DNA of 64,000 bases, from positions 104,429 to 168,428 of the forward strand of contig CANNBJ010000005.1 in NCBI GenBank assembly GCA_947502835.1, written 5' to 3'. The notes beneath the pieces are model-generated. The model saw nothing but the letters and a program-made list of their open reading frames with translations. It was not told the DNA's origin and ran no database searches. The DNA comes from Bdellovibrionales bacterium (GTDB taxonomy: Bacteria; Bdellovibrionota; UBA1018; CAIMNF01). The position numbers and the translations under genes are program-made. This document shows positions 50,667 to 58,059 of this stretch, one piece after another; position 1 is the first letter of the stretch; each line of letters begins with the position of its first letter.

Positions 50667-50870
50667 ACAAACTGGCCTCTTTGAATGGGCATGGACCGTG
50701 GGCTCCATTGACCGATCCCATCGGAGTCACAGGTGTTTCGCCTCCGAGCCGCCTCCTGCGGCCTCGCTCTCGTCAATCCGAACTCGCGAGAGTCGGCGAA
50801 ACCCCTGTGACTCCGAGGGGTTCAAGCTCTGGCGCTCGAGAGCCATGCCCATTCAAGGAGGCCAGTTTGT
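50667..50870. repeat. Dispersed structured repeat R2, copy A, with nested inverted arms
   Basis: Outer arms 50667-50694 and 50843-50870 are 28 bases long and pair at 27 positions, plus one G-U. Inside, TCGGAGTCACAGG (50721-50733) pairs perfectly with 50804-50816, then GTTTCGCC (50735-50742) with GGCGAAAC (50795-50802). The 68-base core between shares its sequence with 57873-57938. A further CCCCTTT/AAAGGGG hairpin (50641-50666) touches the left arm. The element fills most of the 383-base gap between the divergent ispA and fni genes. From 50871 to 51008 nothing more than a GGAG ribosome site was seen. Confidence 0.85.
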
Positions 50871-57660: not shown

Positions 57661-57848
57661 GAAAATCTCCTTTTGTTGCTGAAGCGCATTGCAAGGATTG
57701 TTCCAACGAATTTAGTTTAATTTGTTTTTGATTCCATGGGCTTGCGACAATGGGGTCAAAGTGCGCATGGAGTGGTGGTGTTCTGCACCCGGTAAAAATC
57801 ACTCAAAACTGCTCCCTAAGATTGGGTAGGGAGTCAGAATGGCAGTCA

Positions 57849-57962
57849 GGAAAGTCCTTGGAAATAAATGAGTTTGGCCTCCGAGCCGCGTCCTGCGGCC
57901 TCGCTTCCGGCAATCCGGCCTCGCGAGAGTCGGCCAAAGCCATATATTTCCAAGGACTTTCC
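57849..57962. repeat. Dispersed structured repeat R2, copy B
   Basis: Arms GGAAAGTCCTTGGAAATA (57849-57866) and 57945-57962 pair perfectly over 18 bases and are unrelated to the arms of copy A. The core begins TTTGGCC (57873-57879), which pairs with GGCCAAA (57932-57938). In copy A the same positions read TTTCGCC/GGCGAAA, so the base pair changed on both sides. Core blocks CTCCGAGCCGC, TCCTGCGGCCTCGCT and CTCGCGAGAGTCGGC are shared. A separate CTCCCTA/TAGGGAG hairpin lies just to the left (57812-57833). Confidence 0.85.
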
Positions 57963-58059
57963 CCATATCCATCAAATTCATCCCCCATCTTTGGGAGGAG
58001 GTAGCTTTTTTCCAGCTGGCATCGATCATTGTGGATGAGGCCATAGGGGAGGACGCTGC

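Follow-up and report, generated by a model that had tools for sequence, protein, structure and literature searches.

What kind of element places the same short core within two seemingly different inverted repeats in a single genomic region, and what keeps both the core and its arms intact, is the question raised by the window—the whole stretch of 64,000 nucleotides that was analysed, i.e. C5:104429-168428 of the host genome (G000; 2.73 Mb), a Bdellovibrionales/Oligoflexia relative. It should be noted that gene calls are codon-usage calls on short stretches, that the related genomes are draft MAGs, and that orthology was assigned via flank similarity.

Anatomy of the two copies in the window

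Both intergenic sites with the common core, pointed out in the initial annotation, are present: the pattern GCCTCCGAGCCGCNTCCTGCGGCCTCGCT was found at positions 50740 and 57877, two matches being seen in none of 100 dinucleotide shuffles. The inverted arms cover 83 nt with 80% complementarity around the first site, copy 1 (50660-50742/50795-50877), and 31 nt with 90% complementarity around the second one, copy 2 (57849-57879/57932-57962), the RNA folding z-scores of -13.3 and -10.0, respectively, both lying well beyond shuffled sequence. The closing stem reads TTTCGCC/GGCGAAA in one copy and TTTGGCC/GGCCAAA in the other, i.e. the two-sided change noticed originally is there as well.

The whole palindromic element of copy 1 occupies positions 50668-50869 (~200 bp), with the ends set by a 26-27 nt repeat common to an insertion sequence (IS), and is located between the start of ispA (polyprenyl synthetase; minus strand) and a fni-like gene (plus strand). 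Its left outer arm (50668-50694; plus strand) is the terminal inverted repeat (TIR) CAAACTGGCCTCTTTGAATGGGCATGG, assigned from the match to an IS end and from the IS TIRs, and the right outer arm (50843-50869; minus strand) is its counterpart, supported by the inverted-arm search, the IS-end match and the IS TIRs. The inner arms, delimited by folding (left, 50714-50741, plus strand; right, 50796-50822, minus strand), enclose the conserved 54-nt core (50742-50795; BLAST and covariation), a three-way junction with two apical hairpins. Copy 2 (57807-58006; ~200 bp) is positioned between a hypothetical gene and dus, both on the minus strand; its inner arms (left, 57849-57878, plus strand; right, 57933-57962, minus strand; inverted-arm search and folding) flank the core at 57879-57932 (pattern search and core alignment). 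This copy had been described with inner arms alone, but it has outer arms too (approximately 57807-57831/57982-58006), read off the sequence as an imperfect inverted repeat of the AACTGCTCCCTAAGATTGGG type, so that both window units measure ~200 bp.

In all copies, the core forms the tip of a long imperfect palindrome, the unit being ~200 bp long and ending in CAAACTGGCCTCTTTGAATGGGCATGG and its inverse in the window's subfamily, and ~300 bp long in one relative. Beside copy 2, the segment 58061-58160 of the window contains a different inverted repeat, TTTTTTAAGAACAGGG...CCCTGTTCTTAAAAAA; ~90 nt of this flank recurs with 92% identity beside other copies (the L054 and L161 flanks), and the repeat looks like a second dispersed palindromic family.

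Copy number and taxonomic distribution

The core copies were anchored by BLAST, which yielded 42 matches in G000; since one of these (L041) arose by chance and a few others are fragments of split copies, ~38-40 copies remain. The initial annotation had proposed to search the host and its relatives with a covariance model, and this search revealed dozens of copies, i.e. 42 matches to the core in G000, 24 in G011, 31 in G039 and 19 in G008, with a few copies each in G002, G003, G004, G006, G009 and G026. Extended to 369 genomes of the phylum, the search added one weak match (G253), and a pattern scan of 84,980 species, each represented by one genome, returned 12 stretches, nearly all of them from Bdellovibrionales/Oligoflexia MAGs. 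Both further copies and paired substitutions, without which the original reading would have had to be abandoned, therefore exist (~38-40 copies; 16 of 23 core pairs changed on both sides). The ~31 copies of G039 differ in their ends, their arms are longer, and they contain a further conserved block, GACATTCCGCAGCC/GGCGAGGACGTC.

Viral contigs matched neither the core pattern nor the IS protein, and a phage or plasmid origin was rejected. In Rfam 15, the window gave no match above the gathering score, and six loci searched at E≤1 gave only tRNA and chance matches. No common theme was found among ten upstream genes.

Several variations on the basic arrangement were observed. In L036 (G000:C1:170401-170527) and at G011:C52:9905-10026, the second apical hairpin of the core contains an extra ~50-60 nt, itself hairpin-forming. 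Inverted pairs of copies 1.7-1.9 kb apart occur in G000 (C2:501278/503103, C4:342865/344606 and C4:162481/164374) and in G008 (C106:5108/6803); a composite transposon was considered for them and rejected, ordinary genes being found in between. Diverged cores lie directly 3' of tRNA-Ser(TGA) in G000 and G009 and directly 3' of tRNA-Pro pairs in G006 and G009 (together L039:457-546, L104/L051, L046, L047 and L164); a tRNA-linked origin may be considered for them, but most copies are away from tRNAs.

Relationship to IS1-like insertion sequences

BLAST with the window locus showed that the 26-27 nt ends recur in relatives as inverted pairs ~1.03 kb apart, the outer arm of the window copy being identical in 27 of 27 positions to an IS end in G011 (L094). 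The IS, ~1.0 kb long with TIRs of the form AACTGNCCCCTTNNATTGGGC, encodes a 303-aa protein with weak similarity to IS1; since the NCBIfam model transpos_IS1 scores 25-30 bits against a cut-off of 100, and Pfam gave no match, it is designated here as IS1-like only. Four close and several distant copies of it are present in G000. In the window's subfamily, the TIRs are common to the element and the IS of the same genomes, whereas in the elements of G039, which have the core, the IS1-like TIR was not found. The IS1-like ISs themselves (L186-L203) are located only a few bases away from stop codons, in many cases where two genes converge, which is an unusual target preference.

At the L024 locus, G000 has a unit of ~205 nt at a stop codon, and G008 and G011 have 20-23 nt, with neither arm and no palindrome at these empty sites. 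The arms thus travel with the element, which, at this locus, speaks against the suggestion made at first that it acquires or creates its inverted flanks, and insertion into a pre-existing hairpin was rejected for the same locus. No target-site duplication is visible at this one site, the flanks of which are ~75% identical. The idea of a mobile palindromic element, in turn, gains support from the dozens of copies, the clean empty site and the ends identical to those of the IS1-like IS.

Based on these results, the window site is probably one copy of a MITE-like palindromic family that moves together with its arms, bears IS1-like TIRs in the window's subfamily and contains the core in either orientation, being mobilised in trans, with its arms copied and its core selected. 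In such a family, the IS transposase would move the element in trans; the sequence of one arm would be transferred to the other at the DNA level, through template switching during replication of the hairpin or through recombination of the inverted repeats, which would keep the arms complementary and invert the core as well; and the 54-nt core would be retained in place as a folded recognition site.

Structure and conservation of the core

The core consists of the closing stem and two small hairpins with TCC-type loops, forming a three-way junction. In the core alignment, two-sided changes were found in 16 of 23 pairs, and the covariation score of 0.362 compares with 0.115 for shuffled alignments and at most 0.092 for slid structures. 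In most intact orthologous pairs between G000 and its relatives, the cores are 91-100% identical and the flanking genes 73-90%; the cores of L113/L071/L133, for example, are 94-98% identical with flanks at 73-90%, and L029 exhibits 96% in the core, 76% in the coding flank and 84-87% in the arms. The exceptions, not clearly above their flanks, are the cores of the L060/L154 cluster (81-83%) and of the window's own locus (L072/L083; 81%).

Since the core exceeds its flanks in identity at orthologous loci, these comparisons imply that it is probably under selection in place. Gene conversion between copies could have contributed partially to the conservation, but locus-specific core variants are kept across species, which argues against it. 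We infer that the 54-nt core may be a folded recognition site maintained by such selection in place; the three-way junction is predicted to be bound, most likely, by a factor of the host or of transposition, which would recognise it either in hairpin DNA or in the RNA of gene 3' ends. A bolder proposal, advanced here only tentatively, is that the core represents a structured nucleic-acid motif not described before, which would have a function in the host, be disseminated by unrelated mobile elements in two families related to predatory bacteria and be selected at individual gene ends, its stem evolving almost only by whole-arm copying.

With regard to the window locus itself, copy 1 lies upstream of both genes, ~45 bp from the likely start of ispA and ~140 bp from the fni-like gene, and an effect on the expression of these isoprenoid genes had been envisaged for it. 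In G008, however, the orthologous copy is decayed, its arms not matching and its core being mutated, and the corresponding place in G011 is devoid of a copy, so that a conserved role in isoprenoid expression appears unlikely and the envisaged effect is left unsupported.

Paired changes in the arms and inversion of the core

Ten orthologous comparisons, taking the first 30 pairs of the arms (~230 pairs compared), revealed 14 inner-arm pairs changed on both sides and still Watson-Crick, together with 42 one-sided changes; by our own estimate, about one two-sided change would be expected if the sides changed independently. At least five of these 14 changes involve transversions, which no G-U intermediate could have bridged. 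Of the 90 pairs predicted in G039, 63 exhibit changes on both sides, and one-sided changes in the inner arm are few. Moreover, the core is inverted between matching flanks in L159/L156, L165/L131 and L163/L144, and the sides of the internal loop in L002 are swapped relative to L001. The few G-U intermediates together with the core inversions are better explained by DNA-level arm copying than by selection on RNA. Selection on structure, one of the two readings offered by the initial annotation, would therefore hold for the core in place but not for the arms, the paired changes of which are more simply ascribed to copying. Homogenised arms together with an inverted spacer are the signature described for template switching (PMC8604942), and compensatory stem changes can arise from this process (PMC8794818); recombination between inverted repeats would leave the same mark.

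The strongest alternative, which we nevertheless regard as rather unlikely, is a regulatory RNA in gene 3' regions, i.e. a transcript hairpin, the apical loops of which would bind an RNA-binding protein, the candidate being CsrA, titrated or recruited. On the opposite strand, the loops read CAGGA(N)G, which we take to be the CsrB-type CsrA motif, with the GGA motifs of the two loops ~20 nt apart; CsrA is encoded in 53 of the 55 genomes of the order, and the strong covariation, the conserved loops and the conservation of the core in place would all suit such an RNA. The CsrA gene, being near-universal in the order, does not, however, separate genomes with the element from those without it, the GGA kept in the G000-type copies is replaced by CGA, AGA or UGA in many loops of G039, and orthologous loci differ in the orientation of the core.

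The mismatches were counted in tests that treat the copies as independent although they are related. On the core strand, there is no overall excess of G-U over A-C (158 vs 197). In favour of an RNA, G-U exceeds A-C on the opposite strand of the G000-type copies (inner arms 51 vs 25, p=0.004; G008/G011 29 vs 13), but the asymmetry reflects in part shared ancestral changes, shrinking by eye to ~13 vs 7 core events when ancestry is considered, and it is absent in G039 (13 vs 13; 47 vs 40). The copying of arms in a mobile palindrome is retained as the preferred reading.

Alternative origins of the palindrome

It could also be supposed that the arms are made at the locus, each insertion copying the flanking DNA in inverted form. 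The arms appear unrelated between copies, and in L039 and L104 complementarity exists between the right arm and the 3' end of the tRNA-Ser gene next to it. When aligned, however, the arms are homologous among copies, i.e. the near-perfect inverted arms noted for each copy are real, but they are diverged homologues rather than unrelated sequences; the arms were absent before the insertion at L024, and the tRNA case is one ancestral locus that later arm copying can produce. Such an origin is therefore considered improbable.

The position of the copies brings to mind intrinsic terminators or other pre-existing gene-end hairpins that received a core: convergent genes flank 15 of the 19 G039 copies that were scored (p~1e-6 against 25%), and of the 17 G000 copies that do not belong to the window's subfamily, 14 are preceded by a gene of the same strand. 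The IS copies are, however, also found at gene ends, so the location may be a matter of target choice; the hairpin in G039 has T runs on its 5' side and A runs on its 3' side, opposite to the order in an intrinsic terminator, where a T run comes after a GC-rich stem, and the empty L024 site is devoid of any palindrome, all of which makes this explanation very improbable.

The presence of one Y1_Tnp-like gene each in G000, G008 and G011, with none in G001, G006 and G009, would suit an element of the REP/REPIN type that depends on a Y1 (RAYT) transposase for its movement. Such an origin is hardly credible, however: G006 and G009 have cores nevertheless, the HUH motif of the Y1-like genes reads as lost (QIQ or xIH), their Pfam/NCBIfam scores are marginal, and the element, 200-300 bp long and ending in IS1-like TIRs, is several times the length of a REP. 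The genes concerned (L088:1375-2127 in G000, L087 and L086) are single-copy Y1-transposase-like genes with HUH seemingly lost, possibly domesticated.

Implications and comparison with known systems

An RNA structure is ordinarily regarded as proven when paired substitutions are found in it. The family described here comprises dozens of stems with textbook covariation, yet both the inversion of the core and the missing wobble steps speak for arm copying at the DNA level. It thus offers a natural setting in which to study the evolutionary role of template switching, and calls for caution when RNAs are discovered by covariation. The core, which has no counterpart in Rfam and appears to be selected at individual loci in Bdellovibrionales relatives, offers a new motif, the binding partner of which can be sought directly.

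Like the MITEs reviewed in PMC10969869, the element is short, non-coding and multi-copy, has the same TIRs as an IS of its genome and shows a clean empty site; unlike them, it has a conserved 54-nt three-way-junction core, common to another family with different ends, this core appears selected in place and inverts between the arms, and the single site inspected showed no target-site duplication. The ERIC/IRU and RU-1/RU-2 sequences of enterobacteria (PMC2759123) are likewise scattered, intergenic, imperfect palindromes of 100-200 bp, but the present element has arms almost fully diverged around a fixed centre. With the REP/REPIN-RAYT systems (PMC3116915, PMC8266576), it shares the dispersed extragenic palindromes; it is, however, far longer (200-300 bp rather than a 20-40 nt hairpin), has IS-type TIRs and, in place of the adjacent Y1 transposase with HUH, genes that have lost this motif, thus no credible active RAYT partner. 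In the behaviour of its arms, the element resembles the template-switch inverted repeats (PMC8604942, PMC8794818), where arms are homogenised, the spacer is inverted and compensatory changes arise without wobble steps; those cases concern yeast genes and RNA genes, whereas here template switching would operate on a dispersed family of mobile elements.
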